From the NCBI RefSeq assembly GCF_004360225.1, contig NZ_SNUA01000001.1, positions 310,001-374,000 on the forward strand: a stretch of 64,000 nucleotides of DNA, written 5' to 3'. This document shows, one piece after another, positions 3,293 through 29,639 of the stretch (position 1 is the first letter of the stretch; each line of letters starts with the position of its first letter). Below the pieces are notes generated by a model. It saw only the letters and a program-made list of their open reading frames with translations, made no database searches and had not been told where the DNA came from. This DNA comes from Alcanivorax sp. 24. Lineage in GTDB: Bacteria; Pseudomonadota; Gammaproteobacteria; Pseudomonadales; Alcanivoracaceae. The translations under genes and the position numbers were made by a program.

Positions 3293-5620
3293 TTAACGCA
3301 GGCGATAAGTGAGTGTGGCCATGACGCTGCGTTCGGCGCCCATGTAGCAGTAATCGAGAGAATAGCAGGACGCCACGTATTCCTTGTCCGTCAGGTTGTT
3401 GACGTTGACACGCAGGTCCATGCCGCGCAGGCCGATACGGCCCAGGTCGTAGCCCAGGGAAGCGTCGAACAGGGTGTAGGATGGCACCGTTCGAGTGTTG
3501 GCGCGATCCGCCACGATGTCGGTGACGACCCGGGCACCCAGCCCCACATCAAGACTTTCCAAAGCACCGTCGTTGAAGCGGTATTGCCCCCACAGAGCAG
3601 CTTGGTGACGGGGTGCCTGATTGACCCGGTTGCCCTCGATGTCCTGTTCCGCGTCCTGGTAGCGTATATCCGTATAGGTGTAGCTGGCCTGCAGCGCCAA
3701 CTGGTCGGTGACCATGGTCTGGGCTTCCAGCTCCACGCCGCGGGAACGGATCTGGCCTATGGGCAGATAGATTGCCGCCTGCGGTTCACGAATGGCCACG
3801 TTCTCCTGGTCGATATGGAACAGTGACAGGGTGTAGATTCCACGGCCGTCACGCGGTTGGTATTTCACCCCGGTTTCGTACTGGGTGCCTTCGGTGGGTT
3901 TGAGCGGATTGCCGTCTTCATCGGTGTAGACGCTGGGATTGAACGACTCCGAGTAACTGACGTAAGGTGCCAGACCGTTATCAAACAGGTAGAGCACGCC
4001 GGCACGGCCACTGAAGCGGCTGCGGTTCTGGCTGGAGCGGGCACCGCTGGCGACATCCACATTGGCGGTCCGTACCCAGTCCTGACGACCGCCCAATGAG
4101 AAGCGCCAATTGTCGAGGCTCATGGTGTCCTGCAGATAAACACCGGTCTGGATCAGTTTGCGATCGTTGTCGCTGGCGGTGAACGGTGCCAGCGGGGCCG
4201 AACCGTATACCGGATCGAAGGCGTCGATGGGCGGGAAGGCGCCATTCAGCCACAGGGCGTCCACGTCACGATGCTGGTAGTCGAAACCCAGCAGCAGGGT
4301 ATGGCGCAGCCCCCATTTATCGAAGTCCGCCTGCAACTGTGTATCCACGGCATGGGCGCTGAGGTGCTCGTCGGCGCCGGAGAAATAACGGTTCAATTCA
4401 TTGGTGTCGCCGACCCAGCCATAGGCGTAGACCTGCTGCAATTGCACGTCGCTTTCCAGGTAGCGGTAGTTCTGCCGGAACCGGAAGGTATCGTTGATCA
4501 CGTGTTCCAGGCGATAGCCAATCATTTTCTGGGTGCGTTCATACTGCTCATAGTCCGGCTCTCCCTCGAAGAAATGCCGGGAAACATAGAGTCCGTTGTG
4601 GCGGTACAGGGTACCTTCCGCGGGCAGGCCGCTGTGACTGCCGCCTTCCGGGTCGTCCTGGTAATAGGCCATCAGATCCAGTGTGGTGCGGTCGCTCAGA
4701 TCAATGGTGAACGACGGCGCGATGGCATGGCGCTTTTGCTCCACGTGATCGAACTGGGTATCGCCGCCTTCGGTGAGGCCGATGATGCGGTAAGCGGCAC
4801 GGTCGCCAAGAGGTCCGGCGAAATCGAAGGCGGCGCCCAGCGTATCATTGCTGCCGGCACGGAACTGGATTTCCTGGCGGGTCTCGAACAGCGGCTGCTT
4901 GCTGGTCAGGTTCACCAGACCGCCGGGCGAGGCGCGGCCGTACAGCACCGAAGAGGGCCCCTTGACCACCCCCACCCGCTCCAGGAAGTACGGATCGACC
5001 TGGATCGAATTGAAGGTGCCCGGGTCGCCCATGGTCTTGAGGCCATCCAGGTAAATGTTGTCGATGCTGTCATCGGAGAAGCCGCGCATCACCACATAGT
5101 CGTAGCGCTTGGAAGCGCCGATCTGATCAGTGAACACGCCGGGCGTATAGCGCAGGGCCTGCTGCACGGTTTCCGAGCCCTGGGACTCGATCTGTTCGCG
5201 GCGCACCACGGAGATGGACTGCGGTGTTTCCAGGGTGGGCTGGTCGATTTTGGTGGCGGCCTGAGCGGTCACCGCCACCGGAGCCAGCACGTTGGGCCGG
5301 GCCGGGGAGTGGGCCCGGGAGCTTTGGGCCGGAGCCGCTTCCAGGGTGTAGCTGCCGTCGTCGTTGCGCCGGTAGCGCAGTCCGCTGCCGGCCAGCAGCT
5401 GGTCCAGCGCCGCCGTGGCGGAATAATTGCCGCGCAGGGCCGGGCTTTGTTTGTCCTGGGTCAGGACGGTGTCGTAGATCAGGGTGACGCCGGTGGCGTC
5501 GGCCAGATCCAGCAGCGCCTGGTCGAGGGACTGGGCGGGCAGATTCAAAGGCGCCGCCTGGGCGGCGCAGGTCAGAATAACCGCGCCGAACAGGGCGGCG
5601 CGCAAAGGGTTCAGACGCAT
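3293..5620 (-). CDS. TonB-dependent ferric-siderophore receptor with signalling domain
   Basis: A 775-residue outer-membrane transporter. Order: signal peptide (1-22, cleavage near AQA), STN signalling domain (about 25-95, LNLPAQSLDQALLDLADATG), TonB-box region, plug domain (about 125-235, with QSISVVRREQIESQG and RGFSDDSIDNIYLDG), and a 22-strand barrel ending in LTYRLR. The VLYGRASPGGLVN plug motif and the C-terminal CYSLDYCYMGAERSV place it in the FhuA/FoxA-like hydroxamate receptor group. The STN domain is what contacts a FecR protein, and fecR- and fecI-like genes lie directly upstream on the same strand, so ligand binding should induce its own transcription. The siderophore cannot be read from sequence. 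Confidence 0.92.
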   Translation of the reverse strand: MRLNPLRAALFGAVILTCAAQAAPLNLPAQSLDQALLDLADATGVTLIYDTVLTQDKQSPALRGNYSATAALDQLLAGSGLRYRRNDDGSYTLEAAPAQSSRAHSPARPNVLAPVAVTAQAATKIDQPTLETPQSISVVRREQIESQGSETVQQALRYTPGVFTDQIGASKRYDYVVMRGFSDDSIDNIYLDGLKTMGDPGTFNSIQVDPYFLERVGVVKGPSSVLYGRASPGGLVNLTSKQPLFETRQEIQFRAGSNDTLGAAFDFAGPLGDRAAYRIIGLTEGGDTQFDHVEQKRHAIAPSFTIDLSDRTTLDLMAYYQDDPEGGSHSGLPAEGTLYRHNGLYVSRHFFEGEPDYEQYERTQKMIGYRLEHVINDTFRFRQNYRYLESDVQLQQVYAYGWVGDTNELNRYFSGADEHLSAHAVDTQLQADFDKWGLRHTLLLGFDYQHRDVDALWLNGAFPPIDAFDPVYGSAPLAPFTASDNDRKLIQTGVYLQDTMSLDNWRFSLGGRQDWVRTANVDVASGARSSQNRSRFSGRAGVLYLFDNGLAPYVSYSESFNPSVYTDEDGNPLKPTEGTQYETGVKYQPRDGRGIYTLSLFHIDQENVAIREPQAAIYLPIGQIRSRGVELEAQTMVTDQLALQASYTYTDIRYQDAEQDIEGNRVNQAPRHQAALWGQYRFNDGALESLDVGLGARVVTDIVADRANTRTVPSYTLFDASLGYDLGRIGLRGMDLRVNVNNLTDKEYVASCYSLDYCYMGAERSVMATLTYRLR

Positions 5621-5653
5621 GGGCGGTTCGGTTTCCTGTGCTGTGACAACTAT

Positions 5654-5671
5654 GCAAATGGAAATGATTCG
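5654..5671 (-). promoter_or_regulatory. possible weak Fur site upstream of receptor
   Basis: GCAAATGGAAATGATTCG is an array of GATAAT-like hexamers with several mismatches, 34 nt upstream of the receptor ATG. Iron control of such receptors is the rule, but the match is poor and activation by the ECF sigma factor may be the main control. Confidence 0.35.
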
Positions 5672-5825
5672 GATTGCGTTCCGGAAGAAGACGAAGCCGG
5701 TCTGGATTTCTGAACCAAGGGAGAGGAAATTTTTGCTTTATCTTGGTTTGGAGGAGGAGCTTCCTCTCCATCGGAGGCTGCGGAGCAGCGTCGTCATGGA
5801 GGTATGAATTTGCGCTGTATTCGCC

Positions 5826-5884
5826 GGCAAGCCAGCTTCCCACAGAAGAAGGACTACGAAGCCGCTGTGGGAAGCCGGCTTGCC
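5826..5884. repeat. REP-like palindrome, copy 3
   Basis: Arms at 5826-5845 and 5865-5884 match at 19 of 20 positions (core GGCAAGCCAGCTTCCCACAG). It belongs to the variant with GGCTTGCC in place of TGCTTGCA and sits between the fecR-like stop and the receptor promoter. Confidence 0.85.
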
Positions 5885-5972
5885 AGCGAGTCACTATGGG
5901 CGTGCCGGTGTGATGCGTATAAGTGTGCCTGCGAATGGTGAGGCCGCATTGGTGTACCAACCTGATCTGGTG

Positions 5973-8713: not shown

Positions 8714-9136
8714 ACAGTGCCTCCCTTCGGGTGATGAACTGCATGGGTCACGGGCTGCAGCTTCGCTGCCCATTGCCCTGATTATTGTGCGACGATGAAG
8801 CGTGTTTCCCTGTCGGATATCACCGTCATCCGGGAACGGCGGATGCAGTACTACACGGCTCCGGCCTTTCCGGGGTCGTGCCAATCGTCGATTGGCGGTG
8901 GCTCGTCCCTGCGCCATGGCGCAATAATCCGGTTCTTCGCACGGGCGGATTAAACGCGCGTTCCCCATTCTTCGACGGTCTGATCACGGGTGCAAGTCCC
9001 CGGTTATCGCTTCTCTGTTTGAGTGCCTGATTTTTCATTAATTAATTCATGGGGTTATCGTCGTTATGTGTCAAAACTATGGAGTTCATAGGCGGGGGCG
9101 TCCGGGGCCGCAAGTGAAATGGTGGAAGGAGACACA
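8714..9136. other. intergenic region, no gene seen
   Basis: Divergent upstream region of cfa (left) and the membrane hydrolase (right). The only clear compositional feature is an AT-rich patch near 9027-9060 (TTTTTCATTAATTAATTCAT) that could hold a rightward promoter. Short frames here have no family signature. Confidence 0.5.
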
Positions 9137-10180: not shown

Positions 10181-11242
10181 CGGTTTTAGCGCGGTCATGG
10201 CGCGGTCCACCAGCTGTTGGCAGGCGCTCGGGGTGAGGCCGGTCCAGCGCTTGAACGAGCGGCGGAAATTGGTGTTGTCGTTGAAGCGCAAATAGCGCGC
10301 CACCTGTTCACTGTTGTAGCCATAAAACTGCAAAAGATGCAGAGCGGTATGCTTGCGCGCCCGGTCCAGCAGGTCCTGAAAGTGAGTGCCATGGTGTTTG
10401 AGTTTGCGTTTTAACGTGGCCGGACTCAGGCCCAGTTCCCGCGCTGCGGTATCCAGGGATGGCGGCTCGCGGATGCGTTCGATCAGCGCCAGATAGAGTT
10501 GGTGAACCAGACTGGTGTCGCATCCCAGGGCCAACTGTTGTTCTTGGCATTGTTGCTCGGAAACCGCCCGCGCGGTGTGCGAGCCCCTGGGCCAGGGCTG
10601 ATTCAGATAATGGGCGGGAATCAGCATGGCATCCATTTGCGCTTCGAAGTACAGCTGGGAGCCGAGGTAGACCTGATAGTGCTCCGGATAGTCCGGTTGC
10701 GGGTAGCTGAATTGGAAGGTCCACGGCAACGGTCCGCCGCTGAGCCAGCGGGTCACCGAGGCCAGGGCCGACATCATGCTCTCCACCAGAAACCGGTACT
10801 CATTCCCCGCGCCACAGCTGTCCAGCCACTGCACGCAACAATATTCGCCGGTACGGATGATGCGGGGCGCCAGTAGTGGTGTGATCAAAGGCTGATAATC
10901 CTCCAGCGTGATGAGCGCTTGATCCAGATGGGCGGCGTTGCCGAGCAGCGTGCTGATCGCGCCATAGTGGCCGGGAAGCAGTGTCTGCCCATAGCGGAAG
11001 CCGAGCTCGGGATCCGGGTGCAGGCGGCGAATGTTGTGCACCAATTGCAGGTATTGGCGTGGCGACAAACGCGCGCTGGTATCCAGAAGATCATCGGGAA
11101 ACAAGCCGGTATGTCTGAGCGCCTTGTGATCGTCCAGCCCCTGTTCGCGCACCATCTCCAGCAGCAGTGCCGGGTGATGGTGACAGGGGACGAAGCGGTC
11201 GTCCCGCTGATAACCGATATGGTGGTGAGAGCCGCCGCGCAT
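10175..11242 (-). CDS. AraC-family transcriptional regulator (arabinose_bd N-domain type)
   Basis: A 355-residue regulator of the OruR/ArgR-like AraC group. The N-terminal part (about 20-210) resembles the ligand domain found with this class (ARLSPRQYLQLVHNI, GHYGAISTLLGNAAHLDQAL). The C-terminal double HTH occupies about 255-345 (LDTAARELGLSPATLKRKLKHHGTHF and SEQVARYLRFNDNTNFRRSFKRWTGLTPSACQ). Its ATG lies two bases after the stop of the upstream degenerate GGDEF gene, with no ribosome site of its own, so translation is probably coupled. Target genes are unknown. Confidence 0.85.
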   Translation of the reverse strand: MRGGSHHHIGYQRDDRFVPCHHHPALLLEMVREQGLDDHKALRHTGLFPDDLLDTSARLSPRQYLQLVHNIRRLHPDPELGFRYGQTLLPGHYGAISTLLGNAAHLDQALITLEDYQPLITPLLAPRIIRTGEYCCVQWLDSCGAGNEYRFLVESMMSALASVTRWLSGGPLPWTFQFSYPQPDYPEHYQVYLGSQLYFEAQMDAMLIPAHYLNQPWPRGSHTARAVSEQQCQEQQLALGCDTSLVHQLYLALIERIREPPSLDTAARELGLSPATLKRKLKHHGTHFQDLLDRARKHTALHLLQFYGYNSEQVARYLRFNDNTNFRRSFKRWTGLTPSACQQLVDRAMTALKPL

Positions 11243-11244
11243 GA

Positions 11245-12147
11245 TCAGGCCGCGACGTTCGCCGCCCGCCGCCGGCGGACTTCATCCAGGTCCCGGTTGG
11301 CGCGCTCCAGCCAGGCCTCCGGCGTATCCGCGCCGGCCTCGGTGATGGCCACCACCAGCTGTGAATAATGCGTGCGGCCCTGACCGCTCTTGAAGGCGAA
11401 AGCCGCCACCGCTTGTTCCAGTTCCCGCGCCAGATCCAGTGCCTGTCTGGCGTCGATATCGGTCAGTAGGGCGGCGAAACGGTGGCCGGCGTAGCGGCAC
11501 AGCAGGTCGTCGCGGCGCAGATTCAGCAACAGCAACTCCGCCACTTCCTGCAGCAGACGCTGGCCGTCCTGTTCGCCAAGATGGCGGCGGTCGGCGTCGA
11601 AGTCCGGCAACTCCATCATCAACAGAAGCGGGGGCGTGGCGCGGCGGGAAGCGAGGGCCAGATGTTCGCGCAGATAACCGGCCCGGGTGAGCGGGGTCAG
11701 ACGATCAAAATCCCGATGCTCCCGGAACAGCTTTTCCCGCTTACGCAGCTGATCGCAGATCGCCTGTTGCTCCTTGTGCCAGTGATACAGACCCAGTGTC
11801 AGCAGCAACATGCCCACCGGCATGGCCCCGGATTCCAGCCAGTGGTCCCAGACGATGGTGGTCGGCAGTTGAATGACCTCGTCCATGACGTCCTGCCAGT
11901 AGGCCACGAAGATACCGCTGAGCCCCAGCGACAGAAGATTGGTGACACGGCCGGCGGGCCGGCTGTTGAGCATCAGGGCCAGCCAGATCAGCACCAGCAG
12001 GGCGGCGCCGCCTTCGCCGGCGATATCCAGCCAGACCACCTCGGCCATCGGTTTCAGGGTGCCGGTCAATGCATTGAGCGCCAGTATCGCCGAGGCGATG
12101 GTCAGCAGAGCAAACCACTTCCATCGATGTAGTGCGAATCCCCACAT
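11245..12147 (-). CDS. membrane protein with degenerate GGDEF domain
   Basis: A 300-residue protein with about four membrane helices (residues 10-30, 40-60, 70-87, 108-123) and a cytoplasmic GGDEF-fold domain from about 145. The fold landmarks are present (DFDRLTPLTRAGYL, LGEQDGQRLLQEVA, RRDDLLCRYAG), but the catalytic GGDEF signature is replaced by AGHRF at 220-224, so diguanylate cyclase activity is not expected. An AAGGAG ribosome site lies nine bases before the ATG. It is co-transcribed with the AraC regulator, suggesting the membrane part senses something and passes the signal on. Function is inference. Confidence 0.78.
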   Translation of the reverse strand: MWGFALHRWKWFALLTIASAILALNALTGTLKPMAEVVWLDIAGEGGAALLVLIWLALMLNSRPAGRVTNLLSLGLSGIFVAYWQDVMDEVIQLPTTIVWDHWLESGAMPVGMLLLTLGLYHWHKEQQAICDQLRKREKLFREHRDFDRLTPLTRAGYLREHLALASRRATPPLLLMMELPDFDADRRHLGEQDGQRLLQEVAELLLLNLRRDDLLCRYAGHRFAALLTDIDARQALDLARELEQAVAAFAFKSGQGRTHYSQLVVAITEAGADTPEAWLERANRDLDEVRRRRAANVAA

Positions 12148-12493
12148 CCGTTATTACTCCTTTTTGAACTAGGCTGAACAGGCCCTACCACCCTTCCTAC
12201 GCCGTGGGCATTGCACCGGCGTGACAGAAGTGGCGCCGTCACCGCGGGGGGTCGGATCAGCTCATGGCATCGGTGTTTTTTTCGTGCCGTGCCGGGCTGG
12301 TGCGCCGCGACCGATGGCTTCAGTGCCGGTAAATCGTCCGGGCAAGAGGGTGTGATCAGCTCAACAAGGGGCGTAAATGGCGTTCGAAGCCCTGATGGCA
12401 AGAGGCCAGGCCAAGGGGTGTAACGGAAGTGACATGGCCCCTCCCTAGGTTCCGTGCAACGCGGATGACGTTGCTGACTGCCTTGGGGGACCC
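12148..12493. other. divergent promoter region of GGDEF and phytase operons
   Basis: No gene seen. It must hold the promoter of the rightward receptor-phytase-phoX operon and of the leftward GGDEF-AraC pair. A poor Pho-box-like sequence at about 12418-12434 is in the wrong orientation for the phytase operon. No obvious sigma70 promoter stands out. Confidence 0.45.
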
Positions 12494-14983
12494 ATGACCC
12501 GCTATCAACTGAATACACCTGTTTTTAAACGTACGTTACTGGCCTCGGTGATCGGTGCCCTGGCGCAGGGCGCCGGCGCTGAAGAGAGCGTGGAGAGCCA
12601 CCGTCTGCAGGCGGTGGAAGTGGTCGGCCAAAGCGCCAGTGTGGAAGAGGCGCTGGCCAGCCAACGCGCGGCCGACAACATCCAGACCACGGTGAGCGCC
12701 GATGCCATCGGTCAATTGCCGGATACCAACGTGTCGGAATCACTGCAACGCCTGCCCGGTGTGTCCATCGAACGGGACCAGGGCGAGGGCCGCTTCGTGC
12801 GGGTGCGTGGTCTGGCGCCGGACTACAACGCGGTGGATGTGGATGGCGTGCGGATTCCGGCGCCGGAGGCGGGGCGCCGGGCGGTGGCTCTGGATGTGGT
12901 GCCGGCGGATCTGTTGGAATCGCTCACCGTGGTGAAGACGCTGACCCCGGACATGGACGCCAATTCCCTCGGCGGGACGGTACAGGTGCGCAGCCTGTCC
13001 GCCTTCGACCGCCCGGGCCTTTACTATTCGGTGACCGGAAAGGGCAGTTACAACGAACTGATGGATGAAACCAGCCCGGAATTGTCCGCCGCTTTCAGCA
13101 ATCGCTTCAGTATCGGCTCCGGTGAGGATAATTTCGGCGTGGCGGCGGCGTTCAGCTGGTCCGAGCGCGACTTCGGTTCCGATAACGTGGAAACCGGTGG
13201 CGGCTGGGACTTCGATGACGGTGATGCGCGGCTGGAGGAATTCGAACAGCGGGATTACACCATCACTCGGGAACGGCTCGGTCTGGCGTTGAACTTCGAT
13301 TACCTGCCCAACGACAACAGCCGCTATTACTTGCGTACCCTGCACAGCCGTTTCCGGGATGAGGAAATCCGTCAGGCCAACGTGTTCGGCTTCGAGGAAG
13401 CCATGGCGCCCAACGAAACCGGCGCCGTGGAAGTACAGAAAGAGCTGAAGAACCGCGAGGAAACCCAGAAGATCACCTCGGTGGTGTTCGGCGGTGAGCA
13501 ACGCTGGAATGACTGGGCCATGGAGTACCGTATCGGTCACAGCCGGGCCAGCGAGGACGAGCCCCGCCATACCGGTGGCGCCGTGTTTGCCGCCGAGTTC
13601 GACGATGGTGGCTATTATGGTAGTCGTAAACCTCGCCCGGTTTTCCCGTCCGGTTTTTTTGACGATGCCTTGTATGAGCTGGACGAAGTGGAGGTCGCCC
13701 AGAGTGACACCAAGGACCGGCAAACCGACCTGAAGTTGGATTTCACCCGTGATCTGATGTGGAACCAGCACTTTGCCACCCTCAAGTTCGGCGGCAAGGT
13801 GGCCCGCCGGGACAAGGAGTCCGACGCCGAAACCTGGATCTACGAGCCCGATGGCAATCTGTCGGATTTTGCCAAGGACGTGGATTATGGGCTGGGTGAG
13901 ATGGGATCGGGCATCGATACCAGCGTGGACAATCTACTCAGTGGACCTGGCGAGCGGGACGACGAGGCGTCCGCCATCGAGGACTACGACATCTCCGAGG
14001 ACAGCCGGGCGGCCTATGTGATGGGCACCGTGGACGTGGGGGATCTGCGTGTCCTGGGTGGGGTGCGGTACCAGAGCACCGACTTTTCCGCCCGAGGGTA
14101 CGGCGTGGAAGATGGCGATATCGTCGCCAATCGCTTCAACGAGGATGAACAGCACTGGTTGCCGGCGCTGCATCTGCGTTACCGGGTGGGGCCGGATACT
14201 CAGATCCGGGCGGCGTTCACCCAGAGTGTAGTGCGACCCACCTTCGAGCAATTATCGCCGGGTTATGAAATCGATGGTGACGAGGCCAGTTTCGGCAATC
14301 CGGGGCTCAAGTCCCTGGAAGCGGACAACTACGATCTGGGCATCGAGCATTACATGGGGCGCGCCGGCGTGGTCTCCGCCTTCCTGTTCTATAAGGATCT
14401 GAAGAATTTCGTTTATCGCACCGATGTGGGCGGCGCCAGCGGTTACGAAATGTACGATGAGGCGGAGACATTTGAAAATGGCGACAGTGCTTCCCTGTAC
14501 GGTCTGGAGCTGGCCTACTCGAAAACCTTCAGCGGCTTGCCGGCGCCGTTCAATGGCCTGTTGGTCGGTGCCAACGCCACTCTGGTTGATTCCGAGGCGC
14601 GCATTCGCGCTTATGACGAGGATGCCGGGGGGTACCGGGATCGCACCATCGCCTTGCCGAGCCAGTCGGACCTTACCGCCAATCTTATGGTGGGGTACGA
14701 GACCCGCAAGCTCAGCCTGCGGCTGGCCGCCAACTACACCGGAAACTATCTTCAGGAAGTGCAGGATCCTTTGGACAAGCGCTACGACATTCACGTGGAC
14801 GATCACGTTCAACTGGATTTCACCGGCCATTATTTCCTGACCGAACAGCTGCAACTGACCTTCGAGGCGATCAACCTGACCGACGAACCCTTCTATGCCT
14901 ACACCGGCAGGGAACGCTACAACGCGCAGTACGAAGAGTACGGTGCCACCTACAAACTGGGCCTGTCCCTGAAGCATTACTGA
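12494..14983 (+). CDS. TonB-dependent receptor, probable phytate or organophosphate uptake
   Basis: An 829-residue outer-membrane transporter: signal peptide (cleavage near AGA, residue 30), TonB-box-like LQAVEVVGQ, plug domain (about 55-165: ADNIQTTVSADAIGQLPDTNVSESLQRLPGVSIERDQGEGRFVRVRGL) and a barrel to the C-terminal KHY. The plug motif is that of the large receptor group found with polysaccharide and phosphate-ester utilisation in Caulobacter and Xanthomonas, not of siderophore receptors. No STN domain is present. GGGGGA precedes the ATG. The next gene, 11 bases away, is a phytase, so the cargo is most likely phytate or its partly dephosphorylated products; this is inference from context. 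Confidence 0.85.
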   Translation: MTRYQLNTPVFKRTLLASVIGALAQGAGAEESVESHRLQAVEVVGQSASVEEALASQRAADNIQTTVSADAIGQLPDTNVSESLQRLPGVSIERDQGEGRFVRVRGLAPDYNAVDVDGVRIPAPEAGRRAVALDVVPADLLESLTVVKTLTPDMDANSLGGTVQVRSLSAFDRPGLYYSVTGKGSYNELMDETSPELSAAFSNRFSIGSGEDNFGVAAAFSWSERDFGSDNVETGGGWDFDDGDARLEEFEQRDYTITRERLGLALNFDYLPNDNSRYYLRTLHSRFRDEEIRQANVFGFEEAMAPNETGAVEVQKELKNREETQKITSVVFGGEQRWNDWAMEYRIGHSRASEDEPRHTGGAVFAAEFDDGGYYGSRKPRPVFPSGFFDDALYELDEVEVAQSDTKDRQTDLKLDFTRDLMWNQHFATLKFGGKVARRDKESDAETWIYEPDGNLSDFAKDVDYGLGEMGSGIDTSVDNLLSGPGERDDEASAIEDYDISEDSRAAYVMGTVDVGDLRVLGGVRYQSTDFSARGYGVEDGDIVANRFNEDEQHWLPALHLRYRVGPDTQIRAAFTQSVVRPTFEQLSPGYEIDGDEASFGNPGLKSLEADNYDLGIEHYMGRAGVVSAFLFYKDLKNFVYRTDVGGASGYEMYDEAETFENGDSASLYGLELAYSKTFSGLPAPFNGLLVGANATLVDSEARIRAYDEDAGGYRDRTIALPSQSDLTANLMVGYETRKLSLRLAANYTGNYLQEVQDPLDKRYDIHVDDHVQLDFTGHYFLTEQLQLTFEAINLTDEPFYAYTGRERYNAQYEEYGATYKLGLSLKHY

Positions 14984-23166: not shown

Positions 23167-24654
23167 ATGAATTTCGACGAATACCGTAAGTTGGATGGCG
23201 TGGCCCTGGCCGGGCTGGTGGCCCGGGGGGAAGTCAGCGCGGCGGAATTGCTGGAACTGGCCATAGCCCGGGCGGAGCAGGTCAATCCGAAGCTCAACGG
23301 CTTGGTCATTCCGCTTTACGAGGAAGGCCGGCGCACGGCGGCGGGACCGCTTTCCGGGCCGTTGGCGGGGGTGCCCATGCTGGCCAAGGACCTGTTCCAG
23401 GAAATGGCCGGGGCGCCCTGTTATATGGGTAACAAGGCGCTCAAGAGAATGGGCTTTCGCGCCCCCCACGATTCGGAACTGGTGAGGCGCTGGCGCGAGG
23501 CTGGCCTGGTGTTGTTCGGGCGTACCAACACGCCGGAGTTTGGCGCCAAGGGTATCACCGAGCCGGATTCGTTCGGCGCCTGCCGCAACCCCTGGAATCC
23601 CGAGCACACCCCCGGCGGCTCTTCCGGCGGCTCGGCGTCGCTGGTGGCCGCCGGGGTGGTGCCGTTCGCCGGCGCCAATGACGGCGGCGGCAGTATCCGT
23701 ATTCCGGCGGCCTGCTGCGGCCTGTTCGGGCTCAAGCCCGGCCGCGGCCGCACGCCCTGGGGGCCGGATTTCGGCGAAGCCCTGCACGGACTGTCGGTGA
23801 ATCACGCGGTGACCCGTTCCGTGCGCGATTGCGCGGTGTTGCTGGAGGCGGTGGCCGGAGACGAACTCGCCAGTCTCTATCCGCTGGCGCCGCCCGCGCG
23901 GCCATACCGTGAAGAGGTTGAACGTGACCCGGGGGCCTTGCGTATCGCCTTCACCAGTCGCTCGCCCATAGGCACGGCGGTGGATCCGGAGGCGGTGAAG
24001 GCGGTGGAGAACACGGCTCGTCTGCTGGAATCCCTCGGTCACCAGGTGGAGGAAGCGGAACCGGAGATCGACGTCATGGCCATGAGTATGGACTGGCTGA
24101 TGGTCTGGTTCACCAAGTGCGCCGACAGCGTCAACGAAATGCGCCGGCTCACTGGCGCCGGTGACGACGGATTTGAGCTGGATACCCTGGGGATGGCGGC
24201 GTTCGGGCGCAGCTTGAGCGCGCCGGATTACCTGCGGTGCTACCAGCACTGGCAGACCTATACACATCAGCTGATGGCGTTTCTTCAAGGGTATGACTTC
24301 TTGATGACGCCGACCCTGGCCATGCCACCGGCGCGTATCGGTGCCATGGCGACCCCGCCCTTGCAGCAAGCGGCACTGAAGCTGGTACTGAAAACCGGTG
24401 CGCAAAAACTGCTGATGAAAACCGGGCTGGTGGAGCAGATGGCGCGGGAAAACCTGAAATACACGCCGTTCACGCAACTGGCCAATGTCACTGGTGTGCC
24501 GGCCATGTCGGTGCCGCTGCACTGGTGTGACAACGGTTTGCCGCTGGGTGTGCAGTTTGTCGGCGGTCATGGCGACGAAGGCAAGCTGTTGTCTCTGGCG
24601 GCACAGTTGGAACGGGCCGAGCCGTGGTTTGATCGGGTGCCACCGGAGTTATAA
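23167..24654 (+). CDS. amidase signature family hydrolase
   Basis: A 495-residue amidase that cleaves carboxamide bonds in the cytoplasm. The Ser-cisSer-Lys triad is visible: Lys74 in VPMLAKDLF, the cis-serine in GGSSGGSAS (about 152-153) and the nucleophile Ser176 in NDGGGSIRIPAACCG. Length is normal for the family. It lacks signs of GatA (no gatB or gatC nearby), so it is a catabolic amidase or hydrolase of a cyclic or aryl amide. No operon partner is adjacent; the next gene is on the other strand beyond a REP element. Confidence 0.88.
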   Translation: MNFDEYRKLDGVALAGLVARGEVSAAELLELAIARAEQVNPKLNGLVIPLYEEGRRTAAGPLSGPLAGVPMLAKDLFQEMAGAPCYMGNKALKRMGFRAPHDSELVRRWREAGLVLFGRTNTPEFGAKGITEPDSFGACRNPWNPEHTPGGSSGGSASLVAAGVVPFAGANDGGGSIRIPAACCGLFGLKPGRGRTPWGPDFGEALHGLSVNHAVTRSVRDCAVLLEAVAGDELASLYPLAPPARPYREEVERDPGALRIAFTSRSPIGTAVDPEAVKAVENTARLLESLGHQVEEAEPEIDVMAMSMDWLMVWFTKCADSVNEMRRLTGAGDDGFELDTLGMAAFGRSLSAPDYLRCYQHWQTYTHQLMAFLQGYDFLMTPTLAMPPARIGAMATPPLQQAALKLVLKTGAQKLLMKTGLVEQMARENLKYTPFTQLANVTGVPAMSVPLHWCDNGLPLGVQFVGGHGDEGKLLSLAAQLERAEPWFDRVPPEL

Positions 24655-24776
24655 GCGCTCCTCGGGGTTTAGTGATCTCTTCATCGAGGGCAGCGAAGCC
24701 GTGTTAGGTCTCGAGGTAACCGGCAAACTCGGGGGCTGGCCTTGGAGACATAAATCTGGAGGCCGCTACAATGCTG

Positions 24777-24848
24777 CTGTGGGAAGCTTGCTTGCAAGCG
24801 AATGGGCCTCTGGATCCCGAGATTCGCTTGCCAGCAAGCTTCCCACAG
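24777..24848. repeat. REP-like palindrome, copy 4
   Basis: Arms at 24777-24803 and 24822-24848 match at 26 of 27 positions (CTGTGGGAAGCTTGCTTGC...). The upstream flank GCTACAATGC is shared with copy 1. The right arm has CCAGC instead of CAAGC, so it mixes the two arm variants. It lies between convergent amidase and fusion genes. Confidence 0.88.
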
Positions 24849-24917
24849 TGGCTTCGTAGTCCCGTCTGTGCCAGCGGTTGACGTTGCTGGTGCCCGGAAG
24901 GCCTCCGAGCAATCGGT

Positions 24918-26537
24918 TTAAAAACCGTAAAGGCGGGCAGGGTTGTCGACCAGAATCTTGCGAATGATGGTCTCGTCATGCCCGGCCCATTGGAAGAATT
25001 CTTCCAGCAGCGTGGTGTCATCCGGCATCGGCACGGAAATACACACGTGGGGCCAGTCACTGGCCCACAGGATCTGATCGGGATTGGCTTTGATCAGTGC
25101 CTTGGCATAGGGCGTGACGTCGGAGTAGGGAGTGTCCGGCTGGTTGGTGAAGCGATAAGCGCCGGATAGTTTCACCCAGGCCTTGCCGTCCCGGGCCAGA
25201 CGCAGCAGATCACGGAATCCCGGATGCTTCACGCCGATGCTGGCCGGCATGTGTCCCATGTGATCGATCACCACCTCCACTGGCAGGTTGGCCACGGTGT
25301 CGTAGAGATCGGCGAATTCCGAGATGTCGATCAGCAACTGCAGATGCCAGCCCAGCGGCGCCACCTTGCGGGCCAGACTGGTCACGTCCGAGACCTCGAC
25401 ACCACTCTTGTAGATCAGGTTGACGCGCACGCCGCGTACCCCGAGGGCATCCATTTCCCGGAGTTCCCGTTCACTGGTCTGGTCACTGATCACCACCACG
25501 CCGCGATAGTTGTCGCCGCCTTGACGCAGGGCTTCCAGGGCCACCCGGTTGTCGTAGCCGTAGACGCTGGGTTGCACGATAACCCCCCGGCTCAGCCCCA
25601 GTGTGCCCTGCATTTTTCGGTAGTCGTCCAGTGATGCCGGCGGTGGCGTATAGGAACGATGTGGCGTGAAAGGGTGGACCGCCGCATCCCCGATAATGTG
25701 AAAGTGGCAGTCGCAGGCGCCTTCGGGAAGTGGCATTGATGGCGCGCGACAGCTTGATACCGGTGGTGCGCAGGGCGGGGCGTAGGTTTCGCCAAGTGAC
25801 GTCATGCGGGTCACTTCCCAACCCTGAAGACCACGCAGCCCGTTGCGCTCGGCGGAATTGATGATCTGGGTCCAGGCGGCGCGGCGGGCCAGGTCCGGGT
25901 CGCCCACGGTGATCGCCTCGAGGATCGCCTCGTATTCGGTCAGCACGGTTTCACGCAGTGCCTCGGAAGTGGCGATGCGCCGTTCGAAAGAGGCGGCCTC
26001 AAAGATATGGGCGGTCAGAAACAGCACGAAATTCTTGAAGTATTCGTTGCCGGTGGCGTCGGCGATGGCGCGTTTGAAAGCCAGGCTGCTCTCGACCATG
26101 CCCTGGCCAGTGGCAAGGGCGTCGCGTAACGCGGACAGGGCGGCCCGGATTGCCGCGAGCTGGCTGCGGGAACGGCGGCGGGCCGCCATGCCGGCGGCGG
26201 AGACTTCGAGGTCAAGACGCAACTCATAGAGCTGGCGGAGCTTGGGTAGATGGCTGAGCTCATCGTGGTCGATGCGAAAGCTGTTGCGATGGGCCTTGTT
26301 GGACACGAAAGCGCCCAGACCCTGATGGCTCTCCACCAACCCTTCCGACTTGAGTCGCGCTATTGCTTCCCGGACCACGTTACGCCCGACACCAAACCGC
26401 GCCGTCAGTTGTGACTCACTGGGAATACGGTCGCCGGGCTTGAGGCGGCCGGCGGAAATCTCCGCTTCCAGATGGCGGGAGATCTTGACGGAAAGCTGGC
26501 TGCGTCCTGCAGCGGCAGCTTGTTTCATAAGGCTCAT
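24918..26537 (-). CDS. FadR-family regulator fused in frame to a PDC-lactonase-type amidohydrolase
   Basis: A 539-codon open frame with two complete modules. Residues 10-80 are a GntR winged helix (KPGDRIPSESQLTARFGVGRNVVREAIARL); about 100-230 is an FCD ligand domain whose usual metal histidines are replaced (SLAFKRAI, TEYEAI, AAWTQI). Residues about 270-539 are a COG3618-type amidohydrolase barrel like 2-pyrone-4,6-dicarboxylate lactonase or galactarolactone isomerase: GACDCHFH (His278, His280), VQPSVYGYDN, GVRGVRVNL, VIDHMGHMP, WASDWPH. The linker has no stop codon, but Met245 (25805) has GGGAAG eight bases upstream, so a 295-residue enzyme could also be made alone. Start 26537 or, with a better AGGA, 26528. 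Divergent to a TRAP operon with a paralogous amidohydrolase. A natural fusion, stop-loss or sequence error are all possible. Confidence 0.82.
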   Translation of the reverse strand: MSLMKQAAAAGRSQLSVKISRHLEAEISAGRLKPGDRIPSESQLTARFGVGRNVVREAIARLKSEGLVESHQGLGAFVSNKAHRNSFRIDHDELSHLPKLRQLYELRLDLEVSAAGMAARRRSRSQLAAIRAALSALRDALATGQGMVESSLAFKRAIADATGNEYFKNFVLFLTAHIFEAASFERRIATSEALRETVLTEYEAILEAITVGDPDLARRAAWTQIINSAERNGLRGLQGWEVTRMTSLGETYAPPCAPPVSSCRAPSMPLPEGACDCHFHIIGDAAVHPFTPHRSYTPPPASLDDYRKMQGTLGLSRGVIVQPSVYGYDNRVALEALRQGGDNYRGVVVISDQTSERELREMDALGVRGVRVNLIYKSGVEVSDVTSLARKVAPLGWHLQLLIDISEFADLYDTVANLPVEVVIDHMGHMPASIGVKHPGFRDLLRLARDGKAWVKLSGAYRFTNQPDTPYSDVTPYAKALIKANPDQILWASDWPHVCISVPMPDDTTLLEEFFQWAGHDETIIRKILVDNPARLYGF

Positions 26538-26721
26538 CCTGTGGTCTGTGCGAACGGTGTCGGGTAAACGGCGCCGAGGCCGTGGGCAGTAATAGTACCT
26601 CTCCGGGGGGCTGCACGCTCCATGCACGGGTCGGTGGTGGTTCGGCCACGGGAAAGGCAGCCCGGGTTGTTTCGCGGGGGAGGCACGATGACCGACTTTA
26701 CAGCACTGGTAAATTTATGAT

Positions 26722-26740
26722 CAACTTGTAGGACAAGTTG
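26722..26740. promoter_or_regulatory. FadR-family operator (perfect palindrome)
   Basis: CAACTTGTAGGACAAGTTG is a perfect 8-bp inverted repeat around a 3-bp spacer and fits the FadR-family core TNGTNNNACNA exactly. It lies in the intergenic region between the divergent regulator-enzyme fusion and the TRAP operon, 68 bp before dctP. It is the expected binding site of the fused regulator, giving autoregulation and control of transport together. Confidence 0.82.
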
Positions 26741-26807
26741 GGTGGGCGCTTCTCATTCCGCCTGCCCCCACGCCATCAACTCCATCAAAACAAACAGGAA
26801 AGCCGTG

Positions 26808-27812
26808 ATGACGTCTTTACCCAGATCCGTCAAAACGTTGATGACCGCTGCCATTCTGGCGACGACCCTGGCCGCGGCGAGCGTGACTCAGGCCGCCACC
26901 GTGATCCGCCTGGGCTGGACCACCGCCGACAGCGAAGTGGATCCCTACGCCATTGCCGCGCACTACTTCCAGGAAGAACTGGAAGCCGCGGCACCGGGAC
27001 AGTTCGAAATCAAATTCTTCCCCAACAACCAGTTGGGTAATGACACGGACATGCTGCAGGGGATGCAATTCGGAACGCTGGATGCCGGCGTTATCACCGG
27101 CACCCAGTTAGGGACCCTGGACAAGAGCTTCCAACTCCTTGACCTGCCTTTCCTGTTCAAGGATCGGGCCCAGGCCCACGAGGTGCTGGATGGCGAAGTG
27201 GGGCAGGAGTTGTTCGCACGGTTGGAAAAGCAGGGGCTGATCGGCCTGGGATTCGGCGAGGCCGGTTTCCGGCATGTCATCAACAACAAGCGGGAAGTGC
27301 TGGAGCCCGGTGACTTGCAGGGGGTGAAGCTGCGCGTACAACCAAGCGATCTGTTTATCGCCAGCTTCCGTGCCCTGGGCGCCAACCCGGTCCCGATGGC
27401 CTGGAGCGACGCCTACATGGCGGTGCAGCAAGGCACGGTGGACGGTCTCGAGATTCCGCTGGCGGTGATTTACGCCAACAAATACGCCGACGTGGTGAAG
27501 TACCTGTCGCTGACCAACCACACCTATAACGCCTTGCCGCTGCTGATGTCCAAGCAGGCCTTCTCCCGTTTGTCGTCCGAACAGCAGGAAGCGGTGCGTA
27601 CCGCCGCGCGGAAAGCCATCGAGCGGCAACGCGCCGAGGTGGCGAAGAACGAGCAGGCGCTGATCGAGAAGATCAAGGCCAAAGGCATGGCGGTTACCGA
27701 GATTGCCGACACCGGCGCTTTCCGTGATGAGGTGCGCCCCGTCTATGAAGAATATCGGCCAAGAATCGGCGAAGACCTGGTCGACCGCGCTATGGAACTG
27801 GTCACGGAATAA
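26808..27812 (+). CDS. dctP: TRAP transporter substrate-binding protein
   Basis: A 334-residue periplasmic receptor of the DctP family with a signal peptide ending ASVTQA. It carries FFPNNQLGNDTDMLQGMQFGTLD, GLGFGEAGFRHVINNKREV, DLQGVKLRVQPSDLF and the ligand arginine region typical of organic-acid receptors. The ATG at 26808 is preceded by AGGAAAG; an earlier start has no ribosome site. First gene of an operon with dctQ, dctM and an amidohydrolase. By the enzymes around it, the ligand is probably a sugar acid, aldarate lactone or aromatic-derived dicarboxylate. Confidence 0.92.
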   Translation: MTSLPRSVKTLMTAAILATTLAAASVTQAATVIRLGWTTADSEVDPYAIAAHYFQEELEAAAPGQFEIKFFPNNQLGNDTDMLQGMQFGTLDAGVITGTQLGTLDKSFQLLDLPFLFKDRAQAHEVLDGEVGQELFARLEKQGLIGLGFGEAGFRHVINNKREVLEPGDLQGVKLRVQPSDLFIASFRALGANPVPMAWSDAYMAVQQGTVDGLEIPLAVIYANKYADVVKYLSLTNHTYNALPLLMSKQAFSRLSSEQQEAVRTAARKAIERQRAEVAKNEQALIEKIKAKGMAVTEIADTGAFRDEVRPVYEEYRPRIGEDLVDRAMELVTE

Positions 27813-27814
27813 CG

Positions 27815-28366
27815 GTGGTACAGGGCTCTGGCAAGGTCGCGGAGCCCAATCCTCAGAGCCTTGGTATGTACAGATATCTCGAAGCAGGCAGCAAATACCT
27901 TGCCGCCGCGACGGCCGCGCTCGGCGCGGCCTGCGCGTTGATCATGACTCTGGCCTTGCTGGCGGGTGTGTTCTGCCGATACGTACTGAATTCCTCTTTG
28001 TCCTGGAGCGACGAGGTCGCGTTGCTGGCGTTCAGTTGGACGGTATTCCTGTTCGCCAGTGTACTGACGCGGGAGTTCGGACACGTGCGCGTTTCCATCG
28101 TGGTGGACGCCTTGCCCGGCTTGCTCAAACACGCTCTTGAGCGGGGCAGCGTGCTATTGATCCTGCTGTTCGGCGGGTTGATGTTCTGGGCCGGTTGGCA
28201 GTTCACCGCTTTCACCGCGCACCAGGTGTCACCGGCGCTGCGCTACCCGTTGTGGCTGCAAGGCGCGGCGGTGCCGGCCTGCGGCGCCTTGATGGTCTTC
28301 CATGCCTTGGTGCTGCTGTTCCGCCCCGGGCCGCTTGACGAGCAGGGAGGTGCCGTCGATGAGTGA
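27815..28366 (+). CDS. dctQ: TRAP transporter small permease
   Basis: A small four-helix membrane subunit (183 codons from a GTG two bases after dctP; an ATG at 27866 would give 166). Helices at about 30-55, 65-85, 100-125 and 145-165. Contains the family pattern FCRYVLNSSLSWSDEVALLAFSW and REFGHVRVSIVVDALP. It overlaps dctM by eight bases. It pairs with DctM in sodium-driven uptake of the acid bound by DctP. Confidence 0.9.
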   Translation: MVQGSGKVAEPNPQSLGMYRYLEAGSKYLAAATAALGAACALIMTLALLAGVFCRYVLNSSLSWSDEVALLAFSWTVFLFASVLTREFGHVRVSIVVDALPGLLKHALERGSVLLILLFGGLMFWAGWQFTAFTAHQVSPALRYPLWLQGAAVPACGALMVFHALVLLFRPGPLDEQGGAVDE

Positions 28367-29639
28367 GATTGGCATTGTTCTGATCGTCGGGTTGTTTGTT
28401 CTGCTGCTGTTGGGCGTCCCCATCGCCTTTACCCTGGGCCTGCTCACCGCCGTTGGTATCTGGATGGCGGACTATAATCCGATGATCCTGGCCCAGCGTC
28501 TGATCGCCGGGAGCACCATCACCAGCCTGCTGGCCATACCCGGTTTCATCCTGGTTGGGGACCTGATGAGCGCGGGTGGGTTGTCCAAGCGCCTGGTCAG
28601 GGTGGCCTCGGTCTGTTTCGGTCATCTGACCGGCGGGCTTTCCATGTCCACCGTGGCGGCGGGTACGTTTTTTGGCGCGATTACCGGATCCGCGCCGGCC
28701 ACCACCGCCGCGGTGGGGTCGGTGATGATCGATGAGCTGGAGAAACGGGGTTACTCGCGCGGTTACGGCGCGGCGCTGTCCACCTCCATCGGACCGCTGG
28801 GGCAGATGATTCCGCCTTCCATCCCCATGATCATCTGGGGGGTACTGTCGGAAGAATCGATTTCCAAATTGTTCCTGGCGGGTGTCCTGCCCGGTCTGAT
28901 CGCCGCGGCGGGGTTCTGCGTCGTCGGTTATGTCCATGCCCGGCGCCTGGGTATCGCCCGGGAGAAGCGGCCCGGTGTCCGGGAGATCCTGGCGGCGATC
29001 CGGGAAGGGATATGGGCGTTGTTGGCGCCGGTGGTGATCCTCGGAGGTATTTACGGGAGCGTGTTCACGCCCACCGAAGCGGCCATGGTGGGCGCGTTGT
29101 ACAGCCTTGTCATTGGCCTGTTCATTTACAAGGATCTGCAGTGGAAATCGCTGATACCGTTATTCATAAAGTCGATGCGCACCACCACGGTGATCATGTT
29201 CATTATCGTGGTGGCTTACGGCTTTGCCTGGATCATCGCCAGTGAGCAGATTCCCTCCCAGGTCACGCAAGTGCTGCTGAGTCTCACCTCGAACCCGTTC
29301 CTGATCCTGCTGTTGCTGAACATCATGTTGCTGGTGCTTGGCGCGGTCATGGACACCGTGTCCGCCATGGTCATCCTCAGCGGGGTGCTGACCGCCGTGG
29401 GTACTCAGGTGGGTCTGGATCCGATTCAACTGGGCGCCATGGTGGTGATTAATTTCGCCGTGGGGATGATCACCCCGCCGCTGGGGTATTCCCTGTTCGT
29501 CGCCTCCACCATCAGTGGTTTGAGTATCGAGAAAGTGGCCCGCAATCTCTGGCCGTTCTTCCTGGTCCTCATTGGCGTGGTGGCACTGACCGCCTATGTA
29601 CCGGCGGTGACGCTTTGGCTTCCGGGCCTGTTGGGGTAG
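28359..29639 (+). CDS. dctM: TRAP transporter large permease
   Basis: A 426-residue multi-helix permease of the DctM/YiaN family. The start ATGAGTGAG overlaps the dctQ stop and follows GGGAGG. Recognisable segments: GVPIAFTLGLLTAVGIWMADYNPMILAQRLIAG, the first helical hairpin with GSAPATTAAVGSVMIDEL, and GPLGQMIPPSIPMIIWGVLSEESISKLFLAGVLPGL; a second repeat holds DPIQLGAMVVINFAVGMITPPLGYSLFVAS. These are the two inverted repeats with the substrate and sodium-binding hairpins. It is the pump of the cluster. Confidence 0.93.
   Translation: MSEIGIVLIVGLFVLLLLGVPIAFTLGLLTAVGIWMADYNPMILAQRLIAGSTITSLLAIPGFILVGDLMSAGGLSKRLVRVASVCFGHLTGGLSMSTVAAGTFFGAITGSAPATTAAVGSVMIDELEKRGYSRGYGAALSTSIGPLGQMIPPSIPMIIWGVLSEESISKLFLAGVLPGLIAAAGFCVVGYVHARRLGIAREKRPGVREILAAIREGIWALLAPVVILGGIYGSVFTPTEAAMVGALYSLVIGLFIYKDLQWKSLIPLFIKSMRTTTVIMFIIVVAYGFAWIIASEQIPSQVTQVLLSLTSNPFLILLLLNIMLLVLGAVMDTVSAMVILSGVLTAVGTQVGLDPIQLGAMVVINFAVGMITPPLGYSLFVASTISGLSIEKVARNLWPFFLVLIGVVALTAYVPAVTLWLPGLLG

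Follow-up and report, generated by a model that had tools for sequence, protein, structure and literature searches.

An in-frame fusion of a GntR/FCD regulator and a COG3618-type amidohydrolase in Alcanivorax, a conserved single-clade protein that may sense and consume its own inducer

The window analysed here, a 64,000-nucleotide stretch of DNA from Alcanivorax sp. 24, carries on its minus strand a single open frame encoding 539 amino acids, in which a GntR winged-helix domain, an FCD domain and an Amidohydro_2 domain follow one another (Table 1). These domains score 74.9, 73.5 and 180.9 bits, respectively, against Pfam cut-offs of 27, 24.3 and 26.4, which bears out the preliminary description of this DNA, where a full FadR-family regulator and a full COG3618 amidohydrolase were proposed to share one frame and no strand was named. 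The winged helix and the FCD domain place the protein in the FadR/FCD subfamily of the GntR superfamily, while the score of the third domain and its HxH, His and Asp residues place it among the COG3618/Amidohydro_2 lactonases, lactone hydrolysis being a predicted activity. A GTG farther upstream, at 26627, could also begin the frame. As was also described earlier, the gene faces a divergent TRAP operon, dctP-dctQ-dctM, that is followed by a stand-alone amidohydrolase paralogue.

Table 1. Genes, domains and sites at the fused locus (window positions)
Feature	Position	Strand	Basis and remarks
Fused gene, GntR/FCD repressor and COG3618-type amidohydrolase (predicted lactonase)	24918..26537	-	ORF, Pfam, 20 open homologous rows; ATG at 26528 is a possible alternative start
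GntR winged-helix domain, residues 17-78	26304..26489	-	Pfam
FCD domain, residues 102-222; four metal-site positions S, K, Y, Q	25872..26234	-	Pfam and alignment
Conserved junction, residues 210-256, ending ...RNGLRGLQGWEVTRMTSLGETYAPPC	25770..25910	-	21/47 columns invariant, 20 rows
Internal ATG, Met245, followed by A (ATGA)	25803..25805	-	ATG and A in 20/20 rows; roughly where split relatives begin the enzyme
Amidohydro_2 domain, residues 275-539; catalytic-type H278, H280, H426, D494 present	24921..25715	-	Pfam and alignment
Candidate operator CAACTTGT-AGG-ACAAGTTG, inner ACTTGTNNNACAAGT	26722..26740		Divergent intergenic region, palindrome search
dctP, TRAP solute-binding protein	26808..27812	+	Pfam; start codon chosen, longest ORF from 26742
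dctQ, TRAP small permease	27815..28366	+	Pfam
dctM, TRAP large permease	28302..29639	+	Pfam; longest ORF, true start probably ~28356
Stand-alone amidohydrolase paralogue, 304 aa	29647..30561	+	Pfam; other clade than the fused domain

Convergent with the fused gene is an amidase gene (23167-24654, plus strand), which also adjoins the fused gene in two Alloalcanivorax relatives (L032/L117 and L037; L-numbers are our handles for loci) and is not listed at the other fused loci. Between the ends of the two convergent genes, at 24766-24859, lies a 38-nt inverted repeat, a 25-nt piece of which has 9 matches in the window at up to 3 mismatches (0 expected), with three close inverted pairs. By its sequence, this repeat is a REP-like element.

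The simplest challenge to a fusion of this kind is an assembly or sequencing error that joins two genes, and a +1-frame TGA does exist at GGGAAGTGA, just upstream of Met245 in the window, as the preliminary description had pointed out. However, all 20 homologous rows, from 18 genomes (L003/L037 and L004/L032 are apparently the same genomes), are open through the junction, and the fusion is intact down to about 50% overall identity, with a junction of equal length and free of gaps. Protein-level conservation spans the junction: relative to L033 it contains 20 synonymous and 4 other codon changes, and synonymous changes are plentiful across the rows. These comparisons exclude a one-base error for practical purposes, and the earlier concern that a base had been gained or lost is settled in favour of the fusion. 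In the source genome, a 201-base query across the junction matches a single place, at 100%. The L046 protein is fused as well; a run of N separates its two halves in the assembly, and it was kept outside the 20-row alignment.

The preliminary description had named full-length homologues with both domains as a check on its proposal, and such homologues were found. Stop-free over their full length, they are present in 4 of 46 genomes of the family, the source genome included; three other genomes of the source's genus encode the fused protein at 97-98%, as do the rows named A. balearicus and A. xenomutans, and the source is probably an Alloalcanivorax. Further full-length homologues with open frames occur in the contig-collection loci L032-L045, a count that is a lower bound given that the scan relies on short peptide patterns. 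At the level of the order, a match over nearly the entire query was found in 5 of 390 genomes (the source genome and G146 among them). A Tistrella mobilis plasmid encodes a full-length fused homologue and is the one record, among 149 plasmid records with a match, to cover at least 80% of the query. Because scans of the class (369 genomes) and phylum (398 genomes) gave a full-length match at the strict limit of 1e-70 only in the source genome, the fusion seems rare. In a tree of 98 enzyme domains, a single clade (support 99/99) unites the 17 fused domains with the C-terminal piece of L046, and the Tistrella plasmid fusion, from the Alphaproteobacteria, is its first branch.

It had also been envisaged that all close relatives might carry two genes. 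The close relatives are fused, and it is some of the more distant ones that have adjacent regulator and enzyme genes. In the split pairs L060 and L105/L116, the regulator stop and the enzyme start share a 4-base ATGA overlap; in L063 the overlap is one base, and in L078 and L081 the genes are 32 bases apart. We infer that the fused gene arose from such an overlapping pair through a frame change upstream of the overlap. The same overlaps and short spacings would suit a plain co-expression fusion, in which an overlapping pair lost its stop and no signal passes between the halves. This reading appears rather improbable, as a passive linker would not be expected to stay as strongly conserved across 18 genomes as this junction has, and the FCD metal site discussed below is lost in fused rows and kept in split ones. 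Over the 20 rows, 21 of 47 junction columns are invariant, as compared with 19 of 71 in the GntR domain, 18 of 112 in the FCD domain, 97 of 269 in the enzyme domain and 0 of 14 in the true linker (residues 257-270). The junction is thus the most conserved part of the fused protein, and of the three domains the FCD is the most variable. Every row carries the motif G-(L/I)-x-G-L-(Q/N)-G-W-E-x-(T/S)-R-M at the junction.

In all rows a +1-frame TGA overlaps the Met245 ATG, and the Shine-Dalgarno-like bases that were earlier assigned to this internal ATG are present, with TGGGAAG upstream. The anti-Shine-Dalgarno pairing energy at Met245 is -4.9 kcal/mol for the window; across rows it spans -4.2 to -11.5 kcal/mol, the strongest values being those of L003/L005/L037 (-10.9) and L043 (-11.5). 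It is therefore conceivable that one gene gives two products, with a start at Met245 also yielding the free enzyme, an arrangement that would be compatible with the other readings and that draws on the invariant ATG and A, on their position about where split relatives start the enzyme, and on the strong pairing in some rows. However, 14% of in-gene sites pair as strongly as that of the window, and because the Trp-Glu codons are invariant, the ribosome-site-like bases are fixed and show no visible independent selection. On balance, a second product is possible and rather doubtful.

The divergent intergenic region contains a palindrome whose stricter form, ACTTGTNNNACAAGT, has its single occurrence in the 4.76 Mb source genome at 26724-26738. 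The form TTGT-N3-ACAA is found at 19 of 19 fused loci (an 18 kb slice of the window and 18 further loci; 306,756 bases), which hold 22 sites in total, including three additional ones at other positions in L034 and L035; the expectation per locus from shuffles within 50-base blocks is 0.00-0.30. In the controls, one of five split loci (L116) has it, and the 46 stand-alone loci, 643,829 bases in all, contain three sites, at three loci. At TRAP loci the palindrome lies in the divergent promoter region, in Pseudomonas close to where the paralogue gene, the first of a paralogue-MFS-fusion series, begins, and in L045, L115 and L110 near the fused-gene start. In five of seven Pseudomonas MFS loci (L038, L040, L041, L043 and L046) and in L115 it falls within the 5' end of the longest ORF, and, if it is the operator, the true starts there must be downstream of it. 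A consensus scan of 26300-27000 found no sigma-70 promoter near the palindrome. Overall, the palindrome is a well-supported candidate operator to which the fused protein would bind. L034 and L035, Paenalcaligenes-type loci that are almost identical, each have a second TTGT-N3-ACAA within the fused gene (2465-2483 and 9113-9131, respectively).

The linkage to a transporter and a paralogue extends beyond the window. A stand-alone lactonase gene is also present at 15 of 18 fused loci examined and is not in view at L034, where the contig ends, or at L115 and L110. The paralogues that accompany fused genes belong to three different clades, found respectively with TRAP genes, with an MFS transporter in Pseudomonas, and in Zobellella. 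TRAP genes adjoin the Tistrella fusion (L110) and the split pairs L060, L063 and L116, and an MFS gene adjoins the split pairs L078 and L081. On the Sphingobium plasmid L112, a stand-alone amidohydrolase of 297 aa (5034-5927) is named "GntR family transcriptional regulator", as are matches in other Sphingobium plasmids; the L112 protein has no match to the regulator half of the fused protein, and the label was probably carried over from fused proteins.

An AlphaFold2 model built from 15 sequences (mean pLDDT 77, pTM 0.57) falls below a pLDDT of 50 at junction residues 238-252 and, as a single chain, gives nothing on the dimer. Foldseek relates the C-terminal half to LigI-type enzymes and the N-terminal half to DhdR and NanR; none of the best 50 matches listed spans both halves. 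LigI, a 2-pyrone-4,6-dicarboxylate hydrolase (PDB 4d8l, 4di8-4dia) that is not fused, has the same fold as the enzyme half, and its residues H31, H33, H180 and D248, which we take to be of catalytic type, map to H278, H280, H426 and D494; D248 mutants of LigI have been solved as complexes, according to PDB entry titles. At LigI Arg130 and Tyr156, presumably substrate-binding residues, the fused protein has Lys377 and Leu402, and an assignment as LigI was rejected on this ground. The best NCBIfam model for the enzyme half is 4-sulfomuconolactone hydrolase (NF042924), which was likewise rejected (206.3 bits against a cut-off of 500).

Among solved structures, DhdR of Achromobacter denitrificans (PDB 9jpj) matches the regulator half best (111.6 bits) and, plausibly like the fused protein, is linked to 2-hydroxy acid catabolism. 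DhdR is described as a GntR-family repressor of D-2-hydroxyglutarate dehydrogenase that responds to D-2-hydroxyglutarate and recognizes a short palindromic site (PMC8651671). It is a separate regulator (a 238-residue chain in 9jpj), whereas the fused protein carries a lactonase domain; its alignment shows the D-x3-H...H...H motif that the fused protein lacks, and it binds GTTATCAGATAAC, whereas the fused protein has another candidate site. The fused protein was rejected as a DhdR orthologue for its fusion, its lost FCD motif, and the absence from its genome of a YdiJ match above cut-off. MocR/GabR regulators combine a GntR domain with an aminotransferase-like domain, and so resemble the fused protein in joining a GntR head to an enzyme-derived domain, the enzyme fold being different. 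Classification as MocR was rejected, since the enzyme half is Amidohydro_2 and MocR-type models match the N-terminal part only. Trigger enzymes such as PutA and BirA unite catalysis and DNA binding in one chain, as the fused protein is predicted to do, with unrelated domains and ligands. Taken together, the locus encodes a real, conserved, single-clade regulator-enzyme fusion that is a variant among known enzyme-regulator proteins. A literature search, judged by title and abstract opening and with most subscription papers outside its coverage, found no paper on such a regulator-lactonase fusion.

Four FCD positions, D/N-x3-H...H...H, are taken here as the metal site, a motif that is common and not universal. 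The window protein, which reads S, K, Y and Q, lacks this motif, which subfamily membership does not require. None of 19 fused rows has a complete site, and 13 of them read S/K/Y/Q or S/K/H/Q. All five split regulators, which come from four lineages, have it complete, as D/H/H/H. Among the nine other FCD regulators of the source genome, five have a complete site, with D in two and N in three, one has three positions with the fourth unaligned, two are without the site and one is unaligned; in other genomes, 11 read D/H/H/H, five D/H/H/M (L013-L017), two N/H/H with the fourth position unaligned and one H/H/H/H, and four are gapped. The residues matching LigI His31, His33, His180 and Asp248 are present in 17 of 17 fused rows, and in all seven TRAP-context genomes the fused enzyme domain is closer to that of the window than the stand-alone paralogue is to its counterpart (79.6% and 73.0% identical, respectively, in L033). 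Since the FCD metal site is lost, the catalytic-type residues are kept, and the fused enzyme domain has diverged less than the paralogue, these alignments favour the enzyme domain as the sensor, with the FCD serving dimerization.

Several observations weigh against sensing by the enzyme domain. FCD domains can work without the metal site, as in FadR, and two other FCD regulators of the source genome are also without it. The loss is also partial in some rows, as seven Pseudomonas rows retain the second His and L110 retains the first and last. Lys155, at the first lost His, is nearly invariant in alignment A1 and could hold a carboxylate. Nor is the FCD everywhere the faster domain: in comparison with L033, it is as conserved (80.5% identical) as the enzyme domain.

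Evidence on the substrate comes from neighbouring genes. After matches both short and weak were dropped, YdiJ-type proteins were found near 5 of 18 fused loci (L035, L036, L040, L045 and L115), 7 of 46 stand-alone loci (L047, L048, L049, L056, L057, L058 at 44% identity, and L086) and 1 of 5 split loci (L116, 41% identity). All five proteins near fused loci score above the NCBIfam cut-off for the D-2-hydroxyglutarate dehydrogenase YdiJ; for E. coli and Pantoea, PMC9504171 reports that ydiJ has this activity. In L115, the dehydrogenase gene (10488-13535) overlaps the fused gene by 4 bases, and because of this overlap the two probably form one translation-coupled operon; a 4-base overlap likewise joins the stand-alone lactonase gene of L112 to a gene for an alpha-hydroxy-acid oxidase. 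Because genes for YdiJ-type dehydrogenases and an alpha-hydroxy-acid oxidase adjoin lactonase genes, the product of the enzyme is plausibly a 2-hydroxy acid and the substrate its lactone, and the stand-alone lactonases near YdiJ-type dehydrogenases may belong to a pathway from lactone to 2-hydroxy acid. The source genome has no YdiJ match above cut-off, which counts against 2-hydroxyglutarate in particular, and a literature search found nothing on D-2-hydroxyglutarate lactone as a substrate, which is kept as a lead only. Pantoate and erythronate are 2-hydroxy acids that form lactones. Structure matches to the DctP of the window include 4p47 (match 2) and 4pfr (match 20); within a set of related TRAP binding proteins, 4P47 and 4PFR are described as open and the rest as holding pantoate or erythronate (PMC11668362).

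If the product is a 2-hydroxy acid, the FCD could still be the sensor, responding to the acid made on the spot by the attached lactonase, with Lys155 replacing the metal. Such product channelling would agree with the ligand of DhdR, with the near invariance of Lys155 and with the dehydrogenase near five of the fused loci. It nevertheless seems unlikely, given that the FCD is the least conserved domain, that the DhdR motif is complete in none of the fused rows, and that L045, L097 and L110 have Ser, Ile or His in place of Lys155.

The reading preferred here, to which we assign a probability of slightly under one half, is that of a one-chain repressor-lactonase in which the enzyme domain has taken over sensing and both binds and hydrolyses its own inducer. 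The GntR domain would bind TTGT-N3-ACAA between the fused gene and the TRAP operon, and the bound repressor would shut off the transporter, the stand-alone lactonase and probably its own gene. The FCD, its metal-dependent effector site decayed, would act mainly in dimerization and as a relay, and the lactonase domain, with its intact active site, would be the sensor: imported lactone would bind there and free the repressor from DNA. Slow hydrolysis by the fused lactonase would then reset the switch once the lactone is consumed, while the stand-alone paralogue would perform bulk hydrolysis to what is probably a 2-hydroxy acid, to be oxidized by a dehydrogenase. The preliminary description had suggested that ligand removal is coupled to derepression, an idea that gains indirect support from the lost FCD metal site, the kept active site and the conserved palindrome. 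The low confidence of the model at the junction and the lack of a paralogue in view near L115 and L110 count against the preferred reading. A fuller version, in which a ligand-consuming repressor measures lactone by binding and destroying it and an ancestral internal start additionally releases free enzyme, is doubtful.

To our knowledge, few regulators detect a substrate by means of a catabolic enzyme that is part of the same chain and still active, and the fusion may act as a switch that breaks down the very signal it detects. Likely evolutionary intermediates are available, in the form of overlapping gene pairs with an intact FCD site and then a fused clade without it, and, given these intermediates and the candidate operator, a sensor swap by gene fusion becomes directly testable. 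The association of this lactonase family with YdiJ-type D-2-hydroxyglutarate dehydrogenases offers a lead to the substrate, and the fusion may also explain wrong names such as that of the Sphingobium stand-alone lactonase called a GntR regulator.
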